From contig JAFSPU010000007.1 in the NCBI GenBank assembly GCA_017451265.1, positions 1 through 64,000 of the forward strand: a DNA stretch of 64,000 nucleotides. The letters are read 5' to 3'. The translations under genes were made by a program, and so were the position numbers. Numbering within the stretch: the stretch's first letter is position 1; each line of letters begins with the position of its first letter. A model generated the notes under the pieces. The model had not been told where the DNA came from and searched no databases. It saw nothing but the letters and a program-made list of their open reading frames with translations. Shown piece by piece: positions 10,580 through 61,232 of the stretch. The stretch is from Clostridiales bacterium. Its GTDB lineage: Bacteria > Bacillota > Clostridia > Saccharofermentanales > Saccharofermentanaceae.

Positions 10580-11653
10580 ATGAAAGCTCTTACGAAGAAG
10601 TTAGTTTCGACCATTACGGGGATAATCACAGTTGTCTCGCTGGCTGGTGCTGTTCTGGCGGATAATCCGCCGGCAGTTGTAGTACAGCCTCCGGTTCCTG
10701 TACAGAACCTTCGTGATGATGGAGCATGGCATGAGCTCGTTACTCCCGGTACCGCTGAGGGCGGTTTCATGCAGTATTCCATCGACGGAGTTACATGGTT
10801 TTCCACGATTCCTGCCGCCACTGCCATCGGACACTATACCGTATTCTACAGAGCAGCAGGTGATGCCAACCACAGCATGTCTTCTGTAGGATCCGTTAAT
10901 GTTGATATTACCCGCCCTGATGCTGAAGCTTTTGCCGAGCACATCTATATGAACGCTCTCGGCCGTCACGCTTCGGATCAGGAGAAACTCAATTTCGTTA
11001 ATTCCATTAACGGCGGAGCTAATCCTGCTGACATCGTAAGAGCAGTATTCTCCAGCGGGGAGTTCCAGTGCAGAAATCTTAATGACTTCGACTTTATCAA
11101 TACCGTTTATGCTACTTTGTGCAGAAGAACTCCTGATTCTTCCGGAAGGATCTCATGGTCTAATGCGCTTCAGAGCGGTCTTCCCAGAATGTCTATGGTA
11201 GAGCAGGTAATCTCTTCTTATGAGTTCGCTGATACATGTCTAGTCTTCGGTATGTCCAGAGGCGGCAATGCCCAGCCTAATACCACTGTCAGTGCAGGTA
11301 CAAGTGTAAGAAACTTCGTCGGCAGACTTTACAGACTCTGCCTCGGAAGAACTCCTGACGGATCAGGAAGCGATTACTGGTCAAGCCAACTTCAGAATCA
11401 TGTTATCTCCGGAACAAACTGCGCATACGGTTTCTTTTTCAGCCGTGAGTTTATCAATGCAGGTTATTCCAATAACGAATATGTAACCAGACTTTACAGA
11501 GTCATGCTCGGAAGAGAACCTGATGCCGCAGGCCTTGCCAACTGGCTGGACGCCCTTAACAGAGGCGCATCAAGACAGGACGTATTCTACGGCTTTGCTC
11601 ATTCTGCCGAGTTTACACGCATCTGTGCTGAGTACGGTATCGTAAGAGGATAA
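10580..11653 (+). CDS. Secreted protein with three DUF4214 modules
   Basis: The 357-residue protein has a Sec signal peptide (MKALTKKLVSTITG..., cleavage likely near 'AVLADN'), a short beta-sandwich region (about 40-115), and then DUF4214-like modules. These are recognised by 'AEHIYMNALGRHASDQEKLNF', 'RRTPDSSG', 'LYRLCLGRTPDGSG' and 'LYRVMLGREPDAAGLANWLD', each followed by an 'F..S.EF' element. DUF4214 repeats occur in extracellular proteins such as S-layer-associated and glycosyl-hydrolase-linked proteins, with no settled function. An AAGGGGGAATAAG region precedes the ATG. The stop abuts the stop of the convergent DUF4190-like gene without any spacer. Confidence 0.8.
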   Translation: MKALTKKLVSTITGIITVVSLAGAVLADNPPAVVVQPPVPVQNLRDDGAWHELVTPGTAEGGFMQYSIDGVTWFSTIPAATAIGHYTVFYRAAGDANHSMSSVGSVNVDITRPDAEAFAEHIYMNALGRHASDQEKLNFVNSINGGANPADIVRAVFSSGEFQCRNLNDFDFINTVYATLCRRTPDSSGRISWSNALQSGLPRMSMVEQVISSYEFADTCLVFGMSRGGNAQPNTTVSAGTSVRNFVGRLYRLCLGRTPDGSGSDYWSSQLQNHVISGTNCAYGFFFSREFINAGYSNNEYVTRLYRVMLGREPDAAGLANWLDALNRGASRQDVFYGFAHSAEFTRICAEYGIVRG

Positions 11654-12196
11654 TTATCTTCTGTGTGTTGAGTAATAGGAATAAGAGTTTCCGTTACTTG
11701 CGATAAGGATGATGATGGCTACTATGATAGCCAGGATCGAAATTATCAGTCCGGCCACAGCCAGTCCGCGTCCCTTTTTACCGTTGGTTGAAGTGCGCAC
11801 GAGACCGATGATGCTCAGGATCAATCCGACGAAAGCCGGAAGTCCGCAGCAGAACATTCCTGTTAATGAGCAGATAAAACCTGCGATACACATGCCGTCG
11901 AACTCCATGCCTGAAGTGGTGGCGGGGTTGGGATTGTATGTGTACTCGGGCGGCATATCATAGGAACCTGACTGAACGGGTCCTGCCTGTACGGGCTCAT
12001 ATGCAGAACTGCTTGAAGAGTCGGATGAAGACTCGTAAGCCTGAGCCTCGGTTGCCGGATCAGAGTATGAGGAGCTGTCTGATACGTCTGTCTTTACCTC
12101 AGCTGAATCAGAAACAGTGGAGAGCAGTGAACCGCATCCCTCACAGTAGATTGCATAGTTGGAATTCTCACGCCCGCAGCAATTACACTTAATCAC
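11654..12196 (-). CDS. Zinc-ribbon protein with DUF4190-like membrane domain
   Basis: The 180-residue protein starts at GTG (12194-12196) with AAGGGG about 10 nt upstream. Residues 4-22 form a zinc ribbon (C4, C6/C7, C19, C22). A Ser/Glu/Pro-rich linker follows, and the C-terminal third has two hydrophobic hairpins with 'GLILSIIGLVRT' and 'GRGLAVAGLIIS', characteristic of DUF4190. It is the last gene of the minus-strand operon that starts with the acyltransferase at 16998, overlapping the EamA gene by eight bases. A role in stabilising or regulating that membrane machinery is only inferred from position. Confidence 0.75.
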   Translation of the reverse strand: MIKCNCCGRENSNYAIYCEGCGSLLSTVSDSAEVKTDVSDSSSYSDPATEAQAYESSSDSSSSSAYEPVQAGPVQSGSYDMPPEYTYNPNPATTSGMEFDGMCIAGFICSLTGMFCCGLPAFVGLILSIIGLVRTSTNGKKGRGLAVAGLIISILAIIVAIIILIASNGNSYSYYSTHRR

Positions 12197-13133
12197 TTTT
12201 TATATCCCCTTCCATGTCGATATGCTCTGATTCTATAGCAAATGCTTCTTTCTGCATAGATATTGACTCGAATACCTGTGACAGGATGATGGCTGCGAAC
12301 ATGACGGCGCATCCGGCTATCTCTCTTGCAGAGAGTGTCTCTTTAAGTATGAGCCATCCCGTCAGTGCCGCGAAAACAGATTCGAAGCACATTATGAGCG
12401 AGGCCACTACCGGGCTTGCATATTTCTGCCCGATGACCTGCAGCGTGTAGGCGATGCCGCAGCTCATGATGCCCGAATACATTATTGCGGGAGCGGCTGC
12501 TTTTACGCCCTCGGCTGTCGGGTGCTCGAAGATGAGCATCATAATGGAAGTGATCCCGGCGGCGGTGAAGAACTCCAGGAACGACAGCCTGATGCCGTTG
12601 ATGTTTTCGCCCGTAAATTTGTCGATGAGCATTATCTGGAAGGCATAGACGAAGCCGCATGAGATGGCCAGGATATCGCCCTTATTGATGGCGGTCATGT
12701 CCTCGGGGTTCATGCACAGCAGGAAAAGACCCGCGAGTGCCATGAAGATGGAGACCCATGTGGCGTGCAGTATCTTCTTGCCCAGAAAGATGCCTATGAT
12801 CGGCACGAAGAACATGTAAAGCGCCGTGAGGAACGCGATCTTGCCTGAAGTGGAGTAGTAGAAAGCGAACTGCTGCAGGTTCTGCGCCACCGCGAAAACA
12901 GTGCCGAGTATGATGCCTGCGCGCAGTGTCTTCTTTTCGAAAAGGGAGCGTAAGCCATCGCCCATGAAGAGCACGACCGGCAGGAGTATGAGCGAGCCGA
13001 GAATCGTCCTTAATGCCATGAAAGTGAAGGCGTCAACGGACTCGATACCGATACTTTGCGCCACAAAAGACGAGCCCCATATCAGAGCCGTCAGTACAAG
13101 CAGTACTATTCCTTTCGGCTTGGTCTTCCTCAT
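12189..13133 (-). CDS. EamA/DMT-family transporter
   Basis: I choose the ATG at 13131-13133 (MRKTKPKG, 314 residues). It forms a 4-base ATGA overlap with the stop of the upstream gene and has GGAGAAGG in place. An ATG 21 bases earlier is possible but lies inside the preceding gene with no ribosome binding site. Ten hydrophobic helices form two EamA repeats; the first has the signature 'ALIWGSSFVAQSIG' and the second starts near 'ISCGFVYAFQIML'. EamA proteins export or exchange small metabolites. In this operon a lipid or head-group precursor is a possible substrate, but that is inference. Confidence 0.85.
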   Translation of the reverse strand: MRKTKPKGIVLLVLTALIWGSSFVAQSIGIESVDAFTFMALRTILGSLILLPVVLFMGDGLRSLFEKKTLRAGIILGTVFAVAQNLQQFAFYYSTSGKIAFLTALYMFFVPIIGIFLGKKILHATWVSIFMALAGLFLLCMNPEDMTAINKGDILAISCGFVYAFQIMLIDKFTGENINGIRLSFLEFFTAAGITSIMMLIFEHPTAEGVKAAAPAIMYSGIMSCGIAYTLQVIGQKYASPVVASLIMCFESVFAALTGWLILKETLSAREIAGCAVMFAAIILSQVFESISMQKEAFAIESEHIDMEGDIKSD

Positions 13134-15718
13134 CCTTCTCCGTAATATTCCCATGCAGACTGAGTGTAGATGTTACCACTTGCTGGATCATATGTGAACC
13201 ACTCGCCTGGCTGGAATGTGTTGCCGTTGTTATCTGTTACATTATGTGCGCCTGAAACAAGGTAGCGGAAGCTATTCGGGTCATTAAGCTGGGATACGAT
13301 AGGATTACCTGTGAATGGATTAACAGGATTATCAATTAGCTCATCGAAAGCAAAAATCGGTGTTTCTGCATTAGTAATGAAATCGTCAGTAACTGTGAAC
13401 CCTGTATCACCGAAATCCTTTACCATAAAAAGACAATTGAAGCTATCTATGCTTATATAGTTACCGTTACGGTCATGTGTAGTTCCGAATAAATCATATA
13501 GACCTCCGTGATCAGATACGATAATTATTCTTGTATTATCATATACTCCCTGTTCACGAAGATAATCGAACCAATTGCCAAGAAGTTCAAAAGCAGCAGT
13601 CTGAGAATGATACTGTCCCATTTCCAGTGGATTTAATATCTCAAGATTGATTCCGTTAAAGTAGAATCTTGATGCATCATTGTCATAATCCGAATTATCA
13701 ATGACATGTGAAATCGAGTATGTTGGTTCTTCAAGTATTGTCGGTTCATGGGTTATACCATTGCTCATTATTACGAATGAGCCCGCATCAGAGTCGGTTA
13801 TATTGGTTATGGAAGTAAGGTTTACGAGAGAATAGTAGTAGTTAAGAAACCCATAATTCAAACCGGTAGCATGAGATAAATCATTTATAGTTTGAAAGAA
13901 TGAACCATGAGTTAATCTATTGTTAAGATCATTAAAGAAACCATCATCGTACAGAAGTCTTCTCAGACAAATTGGTGAAGCATACCTTAAACTGTAGGCG
14001 AAAAGATTTCGCTCAAATCGATTTTCCCAGTCATCAGTCATAATGTCATAATACGGGTTAAGGATGCCTTCTGTTATATATGCGTCGATGTATGGATAAT
14101 TATCAAAGATTGAAAGATTCGGAATATATTTGTACCCGGCAAAACTGGGGTCTAACACTGTAACATTATAACCGTTCTCTCCGAAGAGTACGGGCATTAC
14201 GCATACAGCCTCATTGTGTTTGTCTTCGAGCGAGACCTCTGATCTTGCGTTCATCTGTGCCGGTGTATACTCATAGCCTCCGTAAAGAGCAGGTATGGCC
14301 ATATTGGTATGTTGACCAAATGAAAGAGAATTGCTATACCAAGTGAATCCGTCAAATTGTTCGAGTATATCTGGATGTTCGTTAAATATATAAGGGGAGA
14401 TGCGTCCTATAGCTCTATCCAGCATAATAACAACAACATTGGGTTTATCGTATGACAAAGTGAGTGTCGGGTAATCGCGTTGGTTTTCCGTGAACGAATA
14501 AGAATTCATCTCTTTTACTATCAGGTTTGTATTGATGATTGAGACTGCGATGATTGTAACCAATGCCGGAAATGCAAGATATACGAATATTTTTATTTTG
14601 TTCCGTACTACGATAAAAATCAGAACAGCTGACAGTGCAAGAATAATGAGATTGTATGTACAGTCTGAGTAACTGTCATTATTGTAAAACAGAAAATGGT
14701 AATAGCGGTCAAGGTCTCCATTATTGCGGAAGAAAGCGAAATAGTTCAATAGTGCAAATCCCGTTAAACAGATCATTAAGCCTGCGACTATTCTTCTGTT
14801 TTCTAATACGAAGAAGTATATACTTCCCCAAACTAGAAATAATCCGAGACTGATCAAAAGAGAAACCTCAATATAGTGAAGGAGATTAATATTTCTGAAA
14901 TTTGTAAGTAAATCTCCGACTGATTGTTTGAGAAGATTAGAAGGAATCAAAAAACCGATGAAGAATGAAATGCAGAGTGCATAGAGAAAAAATACAATTG
15001 TGTCATTCTTATCTTTAATATAGACGTTATTTTTTCTTTTGACAGGAATTAGTTTCATTACTATGTTTTTGAGTAATGAAAATACGTTGTTTAATGTCCA
15101 GTATAGTACAAGTCCGGAAGGAGATCCGTACAGAAGGACGAGGAACACAAGTGCAGTAATGTATAGTTGGAGTTTGGGTTTTATTCCCATACCCTTGGTG
15201 TATATTGTTCCCGATAGGATGTTGATTGCTGTCATGAGTATAGGCAAAAGATTTATCGCAAACGATCCGATCTTAATCAGACCATCAGGGGCCCCGAGAT
15301 CACCTATGGGACCGAATGTTGCGCCGGAGAGTGCGACAGAAGAGGAGAGCATCCGATATGCCGTGATGAAGAACGGTATCTGCAGAAGAAGTGAGATCGA
15401 GGATCTGAGCATCATAAGGGGATGGTAATGATTCTCGCGGTAATATGCCTGAAGCATCATTACCTGCTCGTCGCCCCTAAATGATTTCTTGATCTTGGTC
15501 TTCCAAGTCTTAAGCTTGTTCTCAACCTCGTTGGATTCAGCCTGAAGGGCATCCGCTCTTGTGTACAAGGGAAGGCAGAGCATGCCGACGGTAATGCTTA
15601 AGAATACTATCGATAGAACGGAACTTCCGGTTAGCTTATAGCTTACCGAGAAGATGAACTCATAAATGAGCTCAAGGGGTCTTATAAGAAGATAATAAAG
15701 AACGGAAATGATACTCAC
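13130..15718 (-). CDS. YidC/Oxa1-like membrane domain fused to an alkaline-phosphatase-superfamily (sulfatase/LtaS-like) domain
   Basis: The 862-residue protein has three parts. Residues 1-220 are YidC/Oxa1-like: 'LCLPLYTRADALQAE' after the first core helix, 'LLLQIPFFITAYRML' and 'PSGLVLYWTLNNVFSLL' match the conserved core. The groove arginine expected before the 'xxxLPL' segment is Gly (ITVGMLCLPL). Residues about 235-415 add roughly six membrane helices. From about 425 an extracytoplasmic hydrolase/transferase domain follows with D434 in 'VVVIMLDRAIG', T471 in 'HTNMAIPALYGG' as the probable nucleophile, and D736/H737 in 'SDHGG'. This is an intact metal site of the family that includes LtaS, phosphoethanolamine and phosphoglycerol transferases. 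It overlaps the acyltransferase gene and the EamA gene by four bases each. Head-group transfer onto a membrane lipid or glycan is my inference. Confidence 0.85.
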   Translation of the reverse strand: MSIISVLYYLLIRPLELIYEFIFSVSYKLTGSSVLSIVFLSITVGMLCLPLYTRADALQAESNEVENKLKTWKTKIKKSFRGDEQVMMLQAYYRENHYHPLMMLRSSISLLLQIPFFITAYRMLSSSVALSGATFGPIGDLGAPDGLIKIGSFAINLLPILMTAINILSGTIYTKGMGIKPKLQLYITALVFLVLLYGSPSGLVLYWTLNNVFSLLKNIVMKLIPVKRKNNVYIKDKNDTIVFFLYALCISFFIGFLIPSNLLKQSVGDLLTNFRNINLLHYIEVSLLISLGLFLVWGSIYFFVLENRRIVAGLMICLTGFALLNYFAFFRNNGDLDRYYHFLFYNNDSYSDCTYNLIILALSAVLIFIVVRNKIKIFVYLAFPALVTIIAVSIINTNLIVKEMNSYSFTENQRDYPTLTLSYDKPNVVVIMLDRAIGRISPYIFNEHPDILEQFDGFTWYSNSLSFGQHTNMAIPALYGGYEYTPAQMNARSEVSLEDKHNEAVCVMPVLFGENGYNVTVLDPSFAGYKYIPNLSIFDNYPYIDAYITEGILNPYYDIMTDDWENRFERNLFAYSLRYASPICLRRLLYDDGFFNDLNNRLTHGSFFQTINDLSHATGLNYGFLNYYYSLVNLTSITNITDSDAGSFVIMSNGITHEPTILEEPTYSISHVIDNSDYDNDASRFYFNGINLEILNPLEMGQYHSQTAAFELLGNWFDYLREQGVYDNTRIIIVSDHGGLYDLFGTTHDRNGNYISIDSFNCLFMVKDFGDTGFTVTDDFITNAETPIFAFDELIDNPVNPFTGNPIVSQLNDPNSFRYLVSGAHNVTDNNGNTFQPGEWFTYDPASGNIYTQSAWEYYGEG

Positions 15719-52896: not shown

Positions 52897-53010
52897 ATGA
52901 AGGTTTGCTTAGTTTGTTCGTACGGAGGATCATCCTGTTATATCGGTATCGAAGATATCGGGGAGTTATGCTGCTCCTTAACGAAGAACATTGACCGGTT
53001 GTTCTCATGA
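52897..53010 (+). CDS. Small ORF, Alg14-like N-terminus, possibly a remnant
   Basis: A 37-codon frame begins 'MKVCLVCSYGGSS', which resembles the first strand and glycine loop of Alg14/EpsE-type glycosyltransferase subunits (usual pattern K-V-C-L-V-C-S-x-G-G-H). The rest (IEDIGELCCSLTKNIDRL) does not follow that family and it ends at TGA 53008-53010. That stop overlaps the ATG of the next glycosyltransferase by four bases (ATGA). The upstream GGGG is too close for a good ribosome binding site. It could be a coupling leader peptide or what is left of a decayed gene. Confidence 0.4.
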   Translation: MKVCLVCSYGGSSCYIGIEDIGELCCSLTKNIDRLFS

Positions 53011-53978
53011 ATCCCTGTCTTTCTGTCGTCATTCCCGTATATAATGCAGAAAAGTATCTGAGGGAATGTATAGATTCTCTGCTAGTGATTGAGTCTGATA
53101 ATGATATGGAACTGATTATCGTAGATGACGGTTCTTCTGACGGTTCCGGTGCTATTGCAGATCAGTATTCCCAGTCTCATTCCAATATCAAGGTTATCCA
53201 TAAAGAGAACGAAGGGCCTTCTGATGCCAGAAATACCGGACTTTTAAATTCGGAAGGGAAATATGTCTTCTTCTGCGATGCTGATGATATTATTGACAGC
53301 GGTAGATTTGTTAATGTGCTGAATCTGCTTTCACAAACAGATTCGGACATTATCGTTTGGGATGCCGCATTGACCGATGAGAATGGAATAAGAATAAAGG
53401 GTAAGGATGAGCGGTTCTATCTTAATGAAGACATAGGCGGTGATGCCGGAGTATTATCGGGTAAGGATTATCTGAATAAGAAACTGGCGACAGTTGGCAA
53501 TTATGCAACTGTAGTCTGGATGGGGGTATACCGAAGACAGTATCTTCTGGAGAATCAGCTGTTCTTTAAAGAAAAGTTGATGCACGAAGATGATCTTTGG
53601 ATTCCTTTGGTCTTTTTGAATGCAGGAAGCGTCAGATACTTTCCGGGTGTTGTTTATTGTTACCGTCAGCACAGTCAATCTCGTAATACATTATTTGGCG
53701 GGAATAGCTCTGCCTATATAGAATCACTTCTGTATATATACCCTTATCTGTTCAATTACTGTGATAATTCACTGGACCAAGGATATTTTAAAAAGAAGTT
53801 TGAGGCGAATCTTGTACGAAAATATCTTCACAAGATTTTCAAATATAGATTCTTCCACTATGGATATGGAGATAGGATCGACCTCGGAATGCTTTGGAGA
53901 AAGTCAGGCCGGTTTATTGATTATCTGAGGGTCGCTTATTTATACCTGTTGAGGATGATGAGGTGTCTTCATGGCTAA
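53007..53978 (+). CDS. Glycosyltransferase family 2 (first of a paralogous pair)
   Basis: The 323-residue GT-A enzyme has 'LSVVIPVYNAEKYLRECIDSL', 'IIVDDGSSDGSGAIADQYS', 'GPSDARNTGL' and the DxD-type 'FFCDADDII'. A 'KLMHEDDLWIPLVF' motif follows, typical of capsular GT2 enzymes. It transfers a sugar from a nucleotide donor to a lipid-linked glycan at the membrane. The next gene is a close paralog that starts eight bases inside its 3' end. The start overlaps the small ORF's stop. Confidence 0.93.
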   Translation: MNPCLSVVIPVYNAEKYLRECIDSLLVIESDNDMELIIVDDGSSDGSGAIADQYSQSHSNIKVIHKENEGPSDARNTGLLNSEGKYVFFCDADDIIDSGRFVNVLNLLSQTDSDIIVWDAALTDENGIRIKGKDERFYLNEDIGGDAGVLSGKDYLNKKLATVGNYATVVWMGVYRRQYLLENQLFFKEKLMHEDDLWIPLVFLNAGSVRYFPGVVYCYRQHSQSRNTLFGGNSSAYIESLLYIYPYLFNYCDNSLDQGYFKKKFEANLVRKYLHKIFKYRFFHYGYGDRIDLGMLWRKSGRFIDYLRVAYLYLLRMMRCLHG

Positions 53979-54936
53979 GTGTATGTCAGTGGTAATACCA
54001 TTCTTCAACAGCGAAAAACACCTGGATGAGTGTATAGAGTCTCTTCTTAAAACGAGAGGGATAGAAGATACTGAGATCATACTTGTGGATGACGGATCGA
54101 CTGACAGGTCTGCCGGTATTGCTGATGATTATTCGTCTGACTATTCTTTTATAACGGTTATCCACAATGATAATAAGGGGCCGTCAGCGGCAAGGAATAC
54201 CGGATTAAGATACACCTCAGGGAAATACATCTTTTTCTGTGATTCCGATGACCGGGTCAATCCGGATTATTTAAGCGAGATAATCCAATTGGCCGTAACA
54301 GAAGATTTGGACGTAATCCTTTGGAACAGTGAGTTGATCGATGAGGATGGCCAAGTGATCGAAGGGGATGATGTTTACCGATATGTTATTGAAGGCTTGG
54401 ACGGGCAGGAAGGGATAATAACCGGTAAGGAAGCTATTAAGCGGCAGTTGTTAAGCCGTGGCGATTATGTGCCTACAGTATGGATAGGAGCTTTTCTGAG
54501 AAGCTATCTGACTGATAATAATCTGTATTTTGAAGAGGGGATTATTCATGAAGATGAATTGTGGTTCCCTAAAGCTCTGCTGAATGCCCAAAGGGTGCGG
54601 TTTTTCCCGGTAGATTTATATCAGTACAGGATTCATACGGGTTCGATCACAAGGCCTGAGATAGTCAACTGGAAAGAGCATATAGAATCGCTTCTCTGCA
54701 TTTATCCTGCTCTTTATGAGTATTACGATGAAGTGTTAGCGGGAGATCCGCTCAAGGATCTTATTGAGGAGAACCTGACGAGAAGATTCCTTCGTAAGAT
54801 ATTCCAATATGATTTCTGCAGTTATGGTTATGCAGACAGACTGGATCTTAATCTGCTATGGAAGAAATCAGTAAGGATCAAAGATAAAGTTAAAGTCTGT
54901 TGCATCTGGTTCAGAAGACTAATAAGACGGACATAG
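53971..54936 (+). CDS. Glycosyltransferase family 2 (second of a paralogous pair)
   Basis: The 321-residue enzyme parallels its neighbour along the whole length: 'MSVVIPFFNSEKHLDECIESL', 'ILVDDGSTDRSAGIADDYS', 'GPSAARNTGL', 'FFCDSDDRV' and 'IIHEDELWFPKALL'. The pair looks like a tandem duplication that has diverged to add different sugars. It overlaps the upstream gene by eight bases and is seven bases from the flippase gene. Acceptor and donor are unknown. Confidence 0.93.
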   Translation: MAKCMSVVIPFFNSEKHLDECIESLLKTRGIEDTEIILVDDGSTDRSAGIADDYSSDYSFITVIHNDNKGPSAARNTGLRYTSGKYIFFCDSDDRVNPDYLSEIIQLAVTEDLDVILWNSELIDEDGQVIEGDDVYRYVIEGLDGQEGIITGKEAIKRQLLSRGDYVPTVWIGAFLRSYLTDNNLYFEEGIIHEDELWFPKALLNAQRVRFFPVDLYQYRIHTGSITRPEIVNWKEHIESLLCIYPALYEYYDEVLAGDPLKDLIEENLTRRFLRKIFQYDFCSYGYADRLDLNLLWKKSVRIKDKVKVCCIWFRRLIRRT

Positions 54937-54943
54937 CATTGAT

Positions 54944-56428
54944 ATGAAAGTGAAGAGTAATAACGAGAAGAACAGCTTGGTATTAAACGCCGTGTTCAAT
55001 GTAGTATACAGGATGCTTAACATTCTGTTTCCGTTGATCACTGCGGGTTATGTTGCAAGGGTGCTTACGCCGGTCGGAGTCGGTTTGAATTTTACTGTGC
55101 AAAATAATGTCTCATACTTCGTGATATTTGCAATGCTTGGTATTCCGGCTTATGCGATAAGGGAGATTGCGAAGATACGGGATGACAGACAAAAGACAGA
55201 TAAGCTTTTCTCTGAACTTCTTGTATTGAATGCTATTCTTACGACTCTATCCTTGTTGCTCTTTTTTGTATGTGTCTTCACGATAGATTATCTTCATAAA
55301 GAATTGGTTTTATACCTTATCTGTGGAATAACAATACTGACCAACTACATAAACTATGACTGGTATTATCAGGCTGTAGAGGAGTACAGATTCATTGCCG
55401 TAAGAAGTATTATCATTAAGGTCATATCAATGACGGCAGTTTTCATTTTTGTCCGGGAACCTGATGACTTGTACATTTATGCCTTTATCTACTCTATGGC
55501 TAATTGCGGTCAATATCTGATCAATATTATCCGGGCAAGAAAAAATGTCAGTCTAAGGCTCAGGGAACTGGAGTTATGGTCTCATATAAAGCCTCTTGTT
55601 TATCTGACTTTATATGTAATATCGATAGAAATATATTCCCATGTAGATATTACTATGCTGGGAATAATTGGCGGGCAAACAACTGTTGCTTTCTATAGTT
55701 GTGCTCAGCGGGTAATCTCTCTGGTAGTTACTTTTATTATATCCGTAACGGCGGTTTTTCTTCCCAGATTAAGTTACTATTATGCGAATGAGAGGGATAG
55801 GTTCTATCGGCTTACCAAATTCGGTGTAGATCTGATGATCTTTATATCAGTTCCGGCGTGCATCGGTATAGCAAGCATTGCAGGTCCGCTTATTAGAATC
55901 TGGCTTGGCAGTGAATATGAAGAATCGATTCCTTGTCTGATAATTCTTTCTTTCATAATACCTTTGAAATGTATAGGCGATATGGCGTGTTTTCAGGTTA
56001 TGATCTGTGCAGGGAAGGAGATGAGCCTGATGGTCTCAAACTTTGCTGCTTTGTTTGTAAATATCGTGCTTAATGTGCTGCTGATTCCGAGGTATGGAGC
56101 TTTCGGTGCATCGGTTGCATCTTTGATTTCTGAAGTCTTTGTCTTTATATTAGTTCTTTATTTGTCGAGAAAGCTCCAGCTATATAAAGCTGATTACAGG
56201 AATCTGTTTTCTGTCATGATTTCATCTGCCGTTATGTCAGTGACTGTGTTGATCATCGAATCAGTGGTCAGCCCGGTCCTGCTTGCCTTTATTATAGGAA
56301 TGGCGGCAGGCGTATTGATTTTTGTTGTTATGAATCTGATAATGAGTAACTCTTTTTTCAGCGTTTTGCTGATAAACAGAATAAGAGGTATGCTTATAAA
56401 GTATGAGAAAGATAAAGAACTGTCTTAA
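54944..56428 (+). CDS. Wzx-type polysaccharide flippase
   Basis: The 494-residue protein has about 12-14 helices and the polysaccharide-biosynthesis/MATE-like features 'YRMLNILFPLITAGYVARVL', 'ITMLGIIGGQTTVAFYSCAQR' and 'IPRYGAFGASVASLISEVFV'. It should flip undecaprenyl-linked oligosaccharide repeat units across the membrane. It lies between the GT2 pair and two methyltransferases; its last 26 bases overlap the first methyltransferase gene. AT-rich composition is typical of such loci. Confidence 0.92.
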   Translation: MKVKSNNEKNSLVLNAVFNVVYRMLNILFPLITAGYVARVLTPVGVGLNFTVQNNVSYFVIFAMLGIPAYAIREIAKIRDDRQKTDKLFSELLVLNAILTTLSLLLFFVCVFTIDYLHKELVLYLICGITILTNYINYDWYYQAVEEYRFIAVRSIIIKVISMTAVFIFVREPDDLYIYAFIYSMANCGQYLINIIRARKNVSLRLRELELWSHIKPLVYLTLYVISIEIYSHVDITMLGIIGGQTTVAFYSCAQRVISLVVTFIISVTAVFLPRLSYYYANERDRFYRLTKFGVDLMIFISVPACIGIASIAGPLIRIWLGSEYEESIPCLIILSFIIPLKCIGDMACFQVMICAGKEMSLMVSNFAALFVNIVLNVLLIPRYGAFGASVASLISEVFVFILVLYLSRKLQLYKADYRNLFSVMISSAVMSVTVLIIESVVSPVLLAFIIGMAAGVLIFVVMNLIMSNSFFSVLLINRIRGMLIKYEKDKELS

Positions 56429-57236
56429 AAGGATAACGCCTCGTCCTCTGTGGCTGATTATGGCTAATGCTGACAGGGTTCTTATGAAGGTGCCATATAA
56501 AATGGATATGATACTTCATCCGGATAAGATGGTTTATTACTGCCCCTGCTGTAAAATAAGGCTAAGATCATTTGAGCAAGGGGATTTTGATGATTATCCG
56601 GATTACTATGATCTTAATGCTTTTATGAATGTAAGGCAGGATCTTCAGTGCCCTTTTTGTTACTCGTGGCCCAGACATAGGATTCTGGGATATTGGAGTG
56701 AGGGACATAAGGATTTATTTAAGGCAAAGAGAATCCTGTATTTTGCGCCTGAGAAGAGTATGATCACCTGGTTATACGGCAACTATTATAACTGCACTTG
56801 CGCCGATTTGGATGGGAGTACTGATATAAGACTTGATATTCAGAATATGAATCTTCCGAATTGTTCATACGATATGATCATTTGTAATCATGTCCTCGAA
56901 CATGTCGACGATTATAGAGTTGCTTTGAGTGAGGTATACAGAGTATTGACACCCGGCGGATACTTTATATGTTCATTTCCAATGGATCCACGTGTTGATC
57001 TTGTCGATGAAGACAGGGGGATAACAGATGATTCGGAACGAAGGTCAAGATATGGCCAGAGTGATCACAAGAGGATGTTCGGAATGCGGGCAGATGTGCT
57101 TTTGAGTGAAGCCGGTTTTGAGGTAACCGTAATCGATGGTAATGATTGTCCTTCGGATATACTGCCTGTTATAGGTCCATCGAAGTATGATATGAACCGT
57201 CTGTTCCTGTGTCATAAGAGATCCGGACAGGCATGA
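56403..57236 (+). CDS. SAM-dependent methyltransferase with Cys4 knuckle
   Basis: The 277-residue protein has an N-terminal CxxC pair region (CPCC and CPFC, about residues 48-85) resembling a zinc knuckle. A class I methyltransferase domain follows: 'ILYFAPEKSMITWL', 'CADLDGSTDIRLDI', 'YDMIICNHVLEHVDDYRVAL' and 'VYRVLTPGGYFICSFP'. Such enzymes methylate sugars in surface glycans. It overlaps the flippase gene by 26 bases. The acceptor is unknown. Confidence 0.85.
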   Translation: MRKIKNCLKRITPRPLWLIMANADRVLMKVPYKMDMILHPDKMVYYCPCCKIRLRSFEQGDFDDYPDYYDLNAFMNVRQDLQCPFCYSWPRHRILGYWSEGHKDLFKAKRILYFAPEKSMITWLYGNYYNCTCADLDGSTDIRLDIQNMNLPNCSYDMIICNHVLEHVDDYRVALSEVYRVLTPGGYFICSFPMDPRVDLVDEDRGITDDSERRSRYGQSDHKRMFGMRADVLLSEAGFEVTVIDGNDCPSDILPVIGPSKYDMNRLFLCHKRSGQA

Positions 57237-57279
57237 TATAATTATCGGGAAAGTTTCAATATAGATAAAGGAAAGTCAG

Positions 57280-58176
57280 ATGGGTTTGATAAGCAGAATC
57301 GGTAAGAAATTATTATTAAGCCTTTCTGACTTGAAATTGCTGGGGCTTGCCCGTGAAAGGATGCCATTTGTCAGTGTTCAGGCTGACGGGCTCGTGTTCT
57401 TTTTTAAGAATACTGATCATTCGATTATTGATTCTATGGTAGTTGACAAGAGAATCTGGTCGCGTGATGAGATGGATTATGTGCTAGGGTACTGTAAGTC
57501 TGTTTCTATCTCCCCGGAGACCGTTATTGATATAGGCGCCAACGTAGGCACCTCCATTATTTATTTCAGGGACAAGATTGGTGAAGACAGCCGCTTCTAT
57601 GCTTTGGAGCCTGTCGAAGAGAATTATGATCTTCTTGTAGCCAATTGTGCGGTAAATGGATTTCATGACATTAACACTTATAATCTTGGGATATCTGATA
57701 CCCCGAAAGAATGCAGGCTTGAGATCAACCCCGGCAACATGGCAACCTGCAGGATAGCAGGGACAGATGACGAAGGGCTTGTTTTCAGAAAAGATGATGA
57801 ATCATATGTAGGTGAGACGGCTTCATTTACTACGATTGATGAATTCGTTTCAGAGAATATTATAAAGCCTGATTCAACAATTCTTTTCTGGATAGATGTT
57901 GAAGGGCATGAGCCTGAAGTGTTCCAAGGCGGTTTGGGCACTTTCCGTAATTACGATGCCATTCTTTTTATGGAGTTTAATCCAAAGCTCTATAAGCACA
58001 ATGGTACATACGACAGTTTTATCAGAATTATCAAAGAATGCTTTAGCGCCTTTATTTGTTATGAGAAGACTGATCATCAGAAATACTCTTTCCGAGATAT
58101 TGAGGAGATTGGCAAAGTGGCTTATGAGACAGGGATGGAGCAGTGTAATCTGATTTTGGTAAAGCGTGCTTTATAG
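57280..58176 (+). CDS. FkbM-family methyltransferase
   Basis: The 298-residue protein has the FkbM pattern: 'VIDIGANVGTSIIYFRDKIG', 'FYALEPVEENYDLLVANCAVNG', 'TIDEFVSEN' and 'FWIDVEGHEPEVFQGGLGTF'. It would O-methylate a sugar or its precursor with SAM. AAAGGAAAG precedes the ATG. A TATAAT at about 57236-57241 could provide an internal promoter. It is the last plus-strand gene of the polysaccharide locus and converges with the GT-B gene at 58200. Confidence 0.92.
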   Translation: MGLISRIGKKLLLSLSDLKLLGLARERMPFVSVQADGLVFFFKNTDHSIIDSMVVDKRIWSRDEMDYVLGYCKSVSISPETVIDIGANVGTSIIYFRDKIGEDSRFYALEPVEENYDLLVANCAVNGFHDINTYNLGISDTPKECRLEINPGNMATCRIAGTDDEGLVFRKDDESYVGETASFTTIDEFVSENIIKPDSTILFWIDVEGHEPEVFQGGLGTFRNYDAILFMEFNPKLYKHNGTYDSFIRIIKECFSAFICYEKTDHQKYSFRDIEEIGKVAYETGMEQCNLILVKRAL

Positions 58177-58199
58177 ATTAAGCTGCATGCTATGAGGAA

Positions 58200-59543
58200 T
58201 CACCATCCGTAAACGTATCTTTCTATCGATTCGGCTACTTCATTCATCAGCATAATATGTTGGTGCTTTACGATATGATCATTACACTCAGCGAGTTGAT
58301 TGGCATCGAGTTTATCCAAGATCTTATAAAGATCCTCTTTGTCAGAAAGATCAACTACGATTCCGGATCCCTCCGACAAAAGATCCTTTGCTCCGACGCG
58401 ATCGGTAATAATGACCGGTACGCCAAAACTCAGCGCTTCCAAAACTGTGAATCCGAACGTTTCATACCAAAGACTTGGAACGATGAGAATATCTGTACTA
58501 TCAAATATCGATTCAAAATCTGAATAGGTGTATCTGTCGTTTGTTGTGATATATTCATTCTCCCCGGGGCAATCAAAATGAATATCCAGGTGAAAGTTCT
58601 TTTTTGTCTCCCAAAGTCTGTCCAATGTTTGTTTAAGGAAGGGAAACCCTTTCGCTCCGCTATAATTACCCAAATATCTCATACGTATCATATCATCAGA
58701 GAAATTCTTCTTTTTTCTCTTATCTTTGATGTCTGAATGAGACAGCCCTATAACACATCCTTTGATATCTCCAAAGTATTTGGTGTAAATATCTTGCGCG
58801 ACTGTACTGTTAAAATGAACAATATCTGAATATTCCAATAATCTCTTATAGTATTCTCTTAGTTTTTGGTAGTCACAATTACTATCAGTTTTTACATATG
58901 CACTCTCTTTATTATCATCCATAAAGAAACTGTTCCTGTGCTGTTTTCTGAGAGGTTTAATAACCGAAGTGTCTTTGATCAGTCTATACATTGGTGACTG
59001 AAGTATCTTTATCTCATTCAGATTTAAAGCAGTTTTATTGCAGCTGCTGCATTCTTTGCACGAATCAACACAGGTGCATAGACCGCCTTTTCTGAACATG
59101 GTTACTTTAGGACAGATAGGAAAGTAATCATGAGTTGTATATGTCATCCTGATTCCCATTTCTTTTGCCGCTTTAAAGAAACTCTCATGCAGACCCATAA
59201 ATGTGTGAATATGAATAACATCAGGCGCAAATGAATTAAGGAAAGCTCTGTATATGCTTTCATCACAATTCGCAGTAAATCTTTCATAATCAGTAATCCC
59301 TTCGTCGTAAGGAACAGGCAAAGGATTAATCAATTCAAAACTGCAGATTTTGGCACCGTTATATTGTTTCGTGCCCCTGTAAGCTACTCTGACTTCACTT
59401 GATAATAAGCTTATCTTACCGGGCCACAGCAAACCAACATCATGACCATTAGAAACCTGTTGCCTCATCAGATCCATGCAAAACTTGGTAAGTCCGCCGG
59501 ATCTATATGGAGGGAACCCTAGTGAATAGTGAAGTATACGCAT
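58200..59543 (-). CDS. GT4-type glycosyltransferase with Cys-rich insert
   Basis: I start at the ATG at 59541-59543 (MRILHYSLGF, 447 residues), one base after the stop of the upstream gene; the longer frame runs inside that gene. The GT-B fold shows 'GFPPYRSGGLTKFCMDL' (N-domain glycine loop) and the C-domain 'ILIVPSLWYETFGFTVLEALSFGVP' with an E-x7-E motif. An insert with six Cys ('CPKVTMF' onward, to CSSCNK) may bind zinc or iron-sulfur. It completes a surface glycan together with the upstream membrane glycosyltransferase. Confidence 0.88.
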   Translation of the reverse strand: MRILHYSLGFPPYRSGGLTKFCMDLMRQQVSNGHDVGLLWPGKISLLSSEVRVAYRGTKQYNGAKICSFELINPLPVPYDEGITDYERFTANCDESIYRAFLNSFAPDVIHIHTFMGLHESFFKAAKEMGIRMTYTTHDYFPICPKVTMFRKGGLCTCVDSCKECSSCNKTALNLNEIKILQSPMYRLIKDTSVIKPLRKQHRNSFFMDDNKESAYVKTDSNCDYQKLREYYKRLLEYSDIVHFNSTVAQDIYTKYFGDIKGCVIGLSHSDIKDKRKKKNFSDDMIRMRYLGNYSGAKGFPFLKQTLDRLWETKKNFHLDIHFDCPGENEYITTNDRYTYSDFESIFDSTDILIVPSLWYETFGFTVLEALSFGVPVIITDRVGAKDLLSEGSGIVVDLSDKEDLYKILDKLDANQLAECNDHIVKHQHIMLMNEVAESIERYVYGW

Positions 59544-59544
59544 A

Positions 59545-61188
59545 TCAGATTGAGAATATTTCTTCGTATTTGTCAGCCACGGACTTCCAGCTGTATGCAT
59601 GTCTCATGCGCTGCTTGGCACGTTTCCCGTAGTCTTCGGAATCTATACTGTCAAGGCTGTTAAGAAGTCCGGCAAGACTTCCGGCTTCCTTCGTCCAGTA
59701 TAGTGCAGCATTCTCAGCTACCTCGCGGTTGAACTCGACATCAAGAAGCAGGTTAACATTCGTCTTACCCATGCTCTCGAGAAGGCTGGGGTTTGTTCCT
59801 CCGACCTCATGACCATGAATATACGCCGCTGCATTCTCACGGATCTTAGCAAGCAATTCCGCATCGTATACAGTACCAACGAATTTGATTCTCGGATCGG
59901 ATTTGTAGTTAAGCTTTTGCTGGATTTCAGCAGCCAAGGCCGAGTTCTCAGTAGTTAAGATTGCATAGTCCATATCGATATCACTCTTCATAAACTCGCG
60001 TATCATTAATACATGATTGTTCTCAGGAACAAATCTTCCGACACTTATTATGAACTTTCTGTCATGAAGGTTGTGATCTGCCAGCCAGTTAACATACTTC
60101 GGATCATCATCCTTGAGAGTGGCTCCGGCAACATCAGAACCATATGGAATGTAAGCAGTACTAGGATGATAACTGTCATATTCTTCTTGAATATACTCTT
60201 CAATTCTTTTGCTGTCGCACACGATCAGATCTGCATTTCTGACAGCAAATCTCTCGGATATCTTCCAATAGATACGTACAGGCAAAGACCACTTTTTGCG
60301 CCAGTTCTCATGCCCGTCGGGATTCTGTATAAGTTGGCCCCCGGCTTTCCTTATGCTTCTTGCATATCTCCCTTCGAAAGGCCCGATCCTGCATGCGAGA
60401 ATATAGACTGTAGGATGCGGTATGTGGTTCTTCTCTATATGATCGCATACCCATTTTAAAGCCTTGAGGTCATAGAATATTGCCTGAGCGGATCCCGCCC
60501 ACTTGGGAACACTGACCATAAAGCAATGAACGCCGTAATAATTAAACTCAATATCATTAATACTAACGGTCCCGGGGACCTTATTAAGTTCCATACTGCC
60601 CTGTCCGTTTGCTTTGTTGGCGATATGATACTTAATATGAACATTCCCGCTGTGCTGTTGCAAAAGATTCATCAGGAAAGTCTCATATCCGCCGTATAAT
60701 CCAATAGACTTCGCTCCGATAATGTAAACATGTTGAGTGTCTGTATATCGGTTTAATTTCGTGTTTTTGTCTGAATTGCTTAATCGTCTTACGCAGTAAC
60801 AGCGATACAATATTTGTAATCCTGAGATAATAGCAATGCTTATCACATAGAATACTCCCATAAGAGAAAGAGAAGGCATAAATACCTGAGGAAATACTCT
60901 GGTGATAATTGATATTAAAAGAACAAATATAGTTTGTTGTTGGGTTGTATCTATTATTTCTCTGTTGGAAAGATTCTCAATTGAGATGTACTTCCGTACA
61001 ATTGAATATAAAAAATATACCCCCAAAGATAATGCCAGATTATTCCGGTATGTACCTGACGGGCTGACATTTCCAAATATCTCGTTAAGCAAAAGGAACC
61101 TTATGCCCATTGAGACCACAAAAGACAGTACAAGTCCAATCAGGTCAATTATCACAAATACGGTTTCCTTGCTCTTGAAACTATACAT
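59545..61188 (-). CDS. Rhamnosyltransferase-like (DUF1972) GT-B enzyme with polytopic membrane N-terminus
   Basis: I choose the ATG at 61186-61188 (MYSFKSKE) since AAGGA is just upstream; a GTG four codons earlier is possible. The first ~145 residues have four to five helices like the N-terminal domain of undecaprenyl-phosphate sugar phosphotransferases. The remainder is a GT-B enzyme of the DUF1972 type: 'IIGAKSIGLYGGYETFLMNLL', 'FIISVGRFVPENNHVLMI' and 'HGHEVGGTNPSLLESMGK'. The catalytic phosphotransferase domain normally following such helices is missing. It has its own promoter and drives the gene at 58200. Confidence 0.85.
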   Translation of the reverse strand: MYSFKSKETVFVIIDLIGLVLSFVVSMGIRFLLLNEIFGNVSPSGTYRNNLALSLGVYFLYSIVRKYISIENLSNREIIDTTQQQTIFVLLISIITRVFPQVFMPSLSLMGVFYVISIAIISGLQILYRCYCVRRLSNSDKNTKLNRYTDTQHVYIIGAKSIGLYGGYETFLMNLLQQHSGNVHIKYHIANKANGQGSMELNKVPGTVSINDIEFNYYGVHCFMVSVPKWAGSAQAIFYDLKALKWVCDHIEKNHIPHPTVYILACRIGPFEGRYARSIRKAGGQLIQNPDGHENWRKKWSLPVRIYWKISERFAVRNADLIVCDSKRIEEYIQEEYDSYHPSTAYIPYGSDVAGATLKDDDPKYVNWLADHNLHDRKFIISVGRFVPENNHVLMIREFMKSDIDMDYAILTTENSALAAEIQQKLNYKSDPRIKFVGTVYDAELLAKIRENAAAYIHGHEVGGTNPSLLESMGKTNVNLLLDVEFNREVAENAALYWTKEAGSLAGLLNSLDSIDSEDYGKRAKQRMRHAYSWKSVADKYEEIFSI

Positions 61189-61232
61189 ACTATCCTTCAC
61201 TATAAAAGTAAATCTCTATCCCTCAAAATATT

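Follow-up and report, generated by a model that had tools for sequence, protein, structure and literature searches.

The minus-strand gene at 13130..15718 of the window, the 64,000-nucleotide stretch of contig JAFSPU010000007.1 (Clostridiales bacterium, assembly GCA_017451265.1, family Saccharofermentanaceae) analyzed here, encodes a YidC/Oxa1-fold membrane module and an alkaline-phosphatase-superfamily (AP) domain in a single chain of 862 residues. Our reading of this YidC-AP fusion, held tentatively and at somewhat less than even confidence, is that it is a membrane phosphotransferase of teichoic-acid-like surface phospho-glycopolymers whose YidC half has been repurposed as a polar lipid path. 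The open reading frame (ORF) begins with GTG at about the same point as its homologues. Its YidC/Oxa1-fold module (residues 1–226; 15041..15718, minus strand, as for all positions in the fusion) contains five predicted transmembrane helices and a cytoplasmic C1 hairpin and is followed by a second block of five predicted transmembrane helices (residues 237–405; 14504..15010, from the predicted model) and by the extracytoplasmic AP domain (residues 419–862; 13133..14464, from the predicted model and a structure search). Ten helices with the AP domain outside the cell agree with both the loop charges and the predicted model, and the loop charges of the middle block fit a start inside and an end outside. 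The first-pass annotation, made from the sequence alone, had proposed a fused architecture with an extracytoplasmic AP domain. The fusion is real, with both parts in one ORF that recurs in relatives, and predicted topology and loop charges agree on the location of the domain.

The window's genome (1.96 Mb, 69.5% complete) carries a single ordinary YidC gene alongside six fusions, three arranged in tandem. Across the order, 108 of 188 genomes match a six-sequence profile at E <= 1e-10; eight of these, with best E values of 6.6e-14 to 2.7e-11, were set aside collectively, without viewing each singly, as ordinary YidC, which leaves 100 fusion genomes and places the eight, G137 of the window's genus included, among 88 others. 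The scan scored at most five candidates per genome, making a copy number of five a lower limit; genome G109 has five fusions end to end (C49:5684-19578). In named genomes, at least 593 stretches were matched by an AP-domain scan and at least 552 encode a relative. Counts for named loci rest on the best 77 of these at least 593 stretches, chosen for having a fusion, which are clostridial by title (one is titled "Bacterium") and include many metagenome-assembled genomes of rumen or gut. They contain 116 ORFs with both parts (115 distinct), eight with the AP part only, and four with the YidC part only. Locus ends cut seven of the eight and three of the four; the other two together make up one split gene in L031. 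No intact stand-alone AP form was found in the 77 loci. That split pair is the single observation in favor of an assembly or annotation artifact that merged two genes, an explanation of negligible probability that is ruled out by the 116 two-part ORFs and by strong matches across 100 genomes in the order. When the class was sampled evenly, the AP domain was present in 9 of 291 genomes (seven of the window's genus, two of another family), and in a sample of the phylum it was present in 3 of 398, one of which (G776, locus L151) lies outside the class. The AP matches listed for the class (27) and the phylum (7) are open frames of 847–944 residues, fusion-sized by length rather than by a check of the YidC part in each, and the one in G776 may reflect transfer between lineages.

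The catalytic half is better supported than the role of the YidC half. The predicted metal ligands D434 (14417..14419) and D736-H737 (13508..13513), the predicted nucleophile T471 (14306..14308), and H657 (13748..13750), a predicted phosphate-binding histidine by analogy with LtaS, are invariant in 104 of 104 aligned fusions (alignment A3, 103 distinct sequences); four of these, D434, T471, D736, and H737, had been named as catalytic at first pass and are borne out. As given by the model and the loop charges, a block of five helices leading into an AP domain outside the cell forms a layout like that of EptA, MCR, and LtaS, and a threonine nucleophile with a set of metal ligands, their roles assigned by analogy, forms a similar site. 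A structure search with the AP domain supports the alkaline-phosphatase fold, and the first six rows of a whole-chain Foldseek search are MCR-1, LtaP, LtaS, and PbgA/YejM at low TM-scores (0.21–0.26 by query length). GacH is not named among the 50 matches listed in either structure search, which excludes nothing. Membership in the type I sulfatases, whose nucleophile is a cysteine or serine converted to formylglycine, is ruled out by the threonine at that position in 104 of 104 fusions. The earlier label "LtaS-like" had to be withdrawn as a statement of family: the NCBIfam LtaS model matches neither the full fusion (E <= 1) nor three fusion AP pieces (E <= 0.001), and LtaS membership is unsupported. 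The phosphate-binding residues of Listeria monocytogenes LtaS are reported as His353, Trp360, and Arg362 (PMC4192460). Alignment of the LtaS phosphate site with the fusion is unreliable, and only a His422-like residue (H657) is plausible. Single-sequence comparison, a weak test, gave no profile link between the fusion AP domain and the AP protein L142 of the same genome and a weak, partial one with L143; these two were covered, with the LtaS-like L144 left out.

The first module is a YidC by domain and fold. It matches PF02096 at 83.1 bits against a cut-off of 35, confirming the N-terminal identity first proposed, and lies barely above the cut-off of NCBIfam TIGR03592 (84.4 versus 84.3 bits); the C1 hairpin is retained in the predicted topology. 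A 2022 paper describes a strictly conserved positive groove residue in all YidC homologues (PMC8920935). At the position of Escherichia coli R366, which is G45 in the window copy (codon 15584..15586), the alignment of 119 fusions (117 distinct) has asparagine in 114, glycine in three, the window copy included, and serine in two. As judged by alignment rather than coordinates, the groove charge is thus present in 0 of 119 fusions versus lysine or arginine in 30 of 30 ordinary clostridial YidCs. This comparison set, the 30 best-scoring loci plus L001 of the window's own genome minus L127, which gave no usable match, is biased toward typical members. The charge is described as dispensable in E. 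coli YidC if residue 517 is aromatic or hydrophilic and yet as essential in Streptococcus mutans YidC2, which has tryptophan at that position (PMC8920935); tryptophan occupies it in all 119 fusions and all 30 ordinary YidCs. Because of these divergent precedents, the lost charge weighs against ordinary insertase activity but is not proof. From the sequences, we read the module as having ceased to be a general insertase; what stands of the insertase-type core of the first-pass annotation is the YidC/Oxa1 domain and fold, not a working insertase.

Polar residues of the module's core have been kept or gained across the fusion alignment (S41, N45, Q or E113, T163, N166, N210, and N211) and probably line the groove. 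K217 (119 of 119) and R54 (112 of 119) sit at cytoplasmic helix ends in the predicted topology. By sequence divergence the module is not decaying, since it has the lowest mean pairwise distance of the three parts of the chain (0.375, versus 0.491 for the AP part and 0.668 for the middle helices) and is the most conserved among them; the parts have diverged jointly (r 0.80 to 0.85). In a tree, a single clade on a branch of 2.17 contains all 119 fusion modules and no ordinary YidC from the set of 30; support is 0.643 for the node of all 119 and 0.952 for a node of 118.

The gene context suggests surface polymers that are rich in phosphate and perhaps bear choline. When neighbors at the 77 loci were clustered, the dominant one was c0, a protein of about 430 residues. 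Two of two c0 members scanned match PF04464, and a c0 profile run against the PDB at E <= 1 retrieved only Cps3D (TagF-like, E 5.4e-8) and TarL (E 0.0033). A YIDPGTGSM-type N-terminus is common to 45 aligned members, in which R-P-H-P and S-D-x-S-G are invariant. Where c0 adjoins the fusion, the two genes share a strand (81 of 81 adjacencies), often with a 1- or 4-base overlap. At >=200 bits, a threshold that omits a 183-bit fragment at a locus end in L040, c0 accompanies the fusion in 42 of the 58 complete runs (or 52 of 85 once cut runs are added) and is missing next to the fusion in the other 16 of 58. Over the order, with genome lists transcribed by hand from result tables, c0 occurs in 98 of 100 fusion genomes versus 0 of 88 others (E <= 1e-60). 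In gene calling, longer antisense ORFs caused some genes to be lost (c0 in L065 and the fusions in L066 and L084); the loss persists in the neighbor clusters, the locus layouts, the 119-fusion alignment, the tree, and alignments A3–A6, whereas the run counts (42/58, 52/85, and 116 ORFs) are free of it. A LicC-like nucleotidyltransferase/choline-kinase-like cluster (four members checked) lies within five genes of the fusion in 13 of 77 loci, and in L065, L081, and L091 the order is LicC-like, LicA-like, LicB-like EamA transporter, c0, fusion; the c0 of L065 is hidden by the antisense ORF in the layout, and its presence in the locus was confirmed. Also near the fusion are an LCP-ligase cluster, c7, in seven of 77 loci and LicD in two (one member of each checked). 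As a separate observation, a protein of about 600 residues in L099 (13068-14819) combines a nucleotidyltransferase match (NCBIfam) with a choline-kinase match (Pfam) in a single chain whose N-terminal part looks like a winged-helix regulator; proteins of similar length occur in L073, L078, L082, L089, and L090, the domain matches being those of L099 only.

How might these parts work together? For LtaS, the proposed mechanism begins with attack of a metal-bound threonine on phosphatidylglycerol; diacylglycerol is released, and the glycerol-phosphate is handed on to the chain. The T300A variant is inactive in Staphylococcus aureus (PMC4192460). GacH reportedly decorates a streptococcal rhamnose polymer with glycerol phosphate, and LCP enzymes subsequently link this polymer to the wall (PMC8807736). 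The second half of the fusion, five helices and an outward AP domain, would act like the EptA/MCR-1/LtaS class: metal-activated T471 would take a phospho-group from a membrane lipid and pass it to an acceptor on the polymer, so that by analogy the AP half would transfer the group outside the cell. The YidC-derived module, its charge lost and its polar core kept, would most likely open a polar path through the membrane for lipid or a lipid-linked substrate. According to a preprint, lipids are scrambled in vitro by E. coli YidC and also by its relatives (PMC10491306), and a chargeless polar groove could therefore carry donor lipid, spent lipid, or a c0-made precursor. In one option, the path would serve a lipid-linked precursor made inside, by TagF-like c0 where present; in the other, the phospholipid donor would come out and the spent lipid would go back. 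We infer the transfer reaction, its donor and acceptor, and the flipping role. More doubtful is the fuller version, a flip-and-transfer enzyme in which an Oxa1-superfamily module is dedicated to moving lipids or lipid-linked precursors and is fused to the enzyme using them, with a TagF-like partner inside in most loci. The first-pass suggestion of a chain that could flip or retain a lipid-linked substrate and alter its head group is in keeping with the TagF-like partner, the Lic-like genes, the LCP ligases, and the published scrambling, with flipping itself the conjectural part.

Several observations weigh against a phosphotransferase with a lipid path. The window copy has no c0 partner and is paired instead with a PlsC-like acyltransferase. 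Membrane proteins of the Wzx and ABC-2 types are encoded in the same genome, so export need not depend on the fusion alone, and other AP proteins there have below-cut-off matches to the LtaS and phosphoglycerol transferase I models. By Z-score, the nearest folds of the AP domain are phosphonate monoester hydrolases and sulfatases, which leaves room for hydrolysis. The AP half could thus be a phosphodiesterase or phosphonate esterase trimming surface polymers or lipids rather than a transferase, but its attachment to a five-helix membrane block, as in MCR-1 and PbgA, and a nucleophile that is threonine throughout rather than the cysteine or serine of sulfatases make this improbable.

The strongest rival reading concerns the YidC half. 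Its C1 hairpin could dock TagF-like c0 and so couple the inner and outer steps of polymer synthesis while moving no lipid. The tight operon pairing and co-occurrence of c0 with the fusion favor such a scaffold, as do the kept hairpin and the predicted placement of K217 and R54, but conservation in the transmembrane core (S41, N45, T163, N166, N210, and N211) exceeds what docking needs, and c0 is not beside the fusion in the 16 complete runs noted above or in the window; we consider the scaffold unlikely. Less likely again is that the module still serves as an insertase or chaperone, with either its own long chain or partner membrane enzymes as clients. The YidC fold, the hairpin, and the TIGR03592 score would suit it, and the tryptophan at the 517 position could excuse the missing charge on the E. 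coli precedent; the S. mutans precedent, the absence of the charge from every fusion, and an ordinary YidC gene in the window's genome speak against it.

Around the window's fusion, a PlsC-like acyltransferase gene (PF01553; 15715..16998, minus strand) lies upstream and overlaps it by 4 nucleotides, and an EamA transporter gene (12189..13154, minus strand) lies downstream and overlaps it by 25. The same order is found in L023, the closest named relative among the best 77 loci, where a gene similar to the next one, encoding a zinc-ribbon DUF4190 membrane protein (11654..12196, minus strand, overlapping the EamA gene by 8 nucleotides), is also present. The acyltransferase has a weak rubredoxin/zinc-ribbon-like C-terminal match. 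Beside the fusion, the protein at 10580-11653 contains four DUF4214 stretches, and one such stretch occurs in L008:6900-8561, in the fusion cluster of contig C2. Farther along the same contig, 53007-61200 appears to be a surface-glycan cluster, with genes that look by eye like those of glycosyltransferases and, by a PF01943 match, a Wzx-type flippase (54944-56428).

Both halves come from known superfamilies; as far as we found, neither their combination nor the lost charge nor the operon pairing has been described. With YidC/Oxa1/Alb3 insertases (PF02096, TIGR03592), the fusion shares domain, fold, C1 hairpin, and predicted C-in topology, but it lacks the groove charge, is extended by a second membrane enzyme, occurs as several paralogues beside an ordinary YidC, and has (near-)invariant N45, T163, N166, and N210 that are not typical of ordinary YidCs. 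Helices followed by an outward AP domain also characterize EptA/MCR-1 and PbgA/YejM, with MCR-1 and PbgA in the first Foldseek rows, and EptA/MCR enzymes have a threonine/metal site. Unlike these, the fusion has an extra YidC module, 11–14% identity in the listed alignments, a context of Gram-positive-type polymers, and aspartate as first metal ligand where EptA has glutamate. The AP fold, threonine nucleophile, D-H metal pair, and surface-polymer context are shared with LtaS/LtaP and GacH, although the fusion has aspartate where LtaS has glutamate and no match to the LtaS model; we know of no YidC module in LtaS or GacH. The partner c0 resembles TagF/TarL-type CDP-alditol phosphotransferases but is short, with a conserved hydrophobic N-terminus. 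In agreement with the first-pass annotation, which was aware of no characterized YidC-transferase fusion, no description was found in the literature searched, most subscription papers and domain-architecture databases lying outside the search, and the terms "sulfatase," "fused," and "fusion" gave no match in a 2009 survey of the YidC family (PMC2706819).

Because the fusion passes a YidC family cut-off, it could be misnamed an insertase in annotation. A natural family that drops the insertase charge, keeps the module under stronger constraint than the catalytic domain, and is tied to polymer genes offers a testable case for lipid movement as the job of an Oxa1-superfamily member. The fusions suggest that gut and rumen Clostridia have a class of surface-polymer enzymes that seems not to have been studied, and in some of these bacteria a YidC-type fold may have been turned to a new lipid-handling use.
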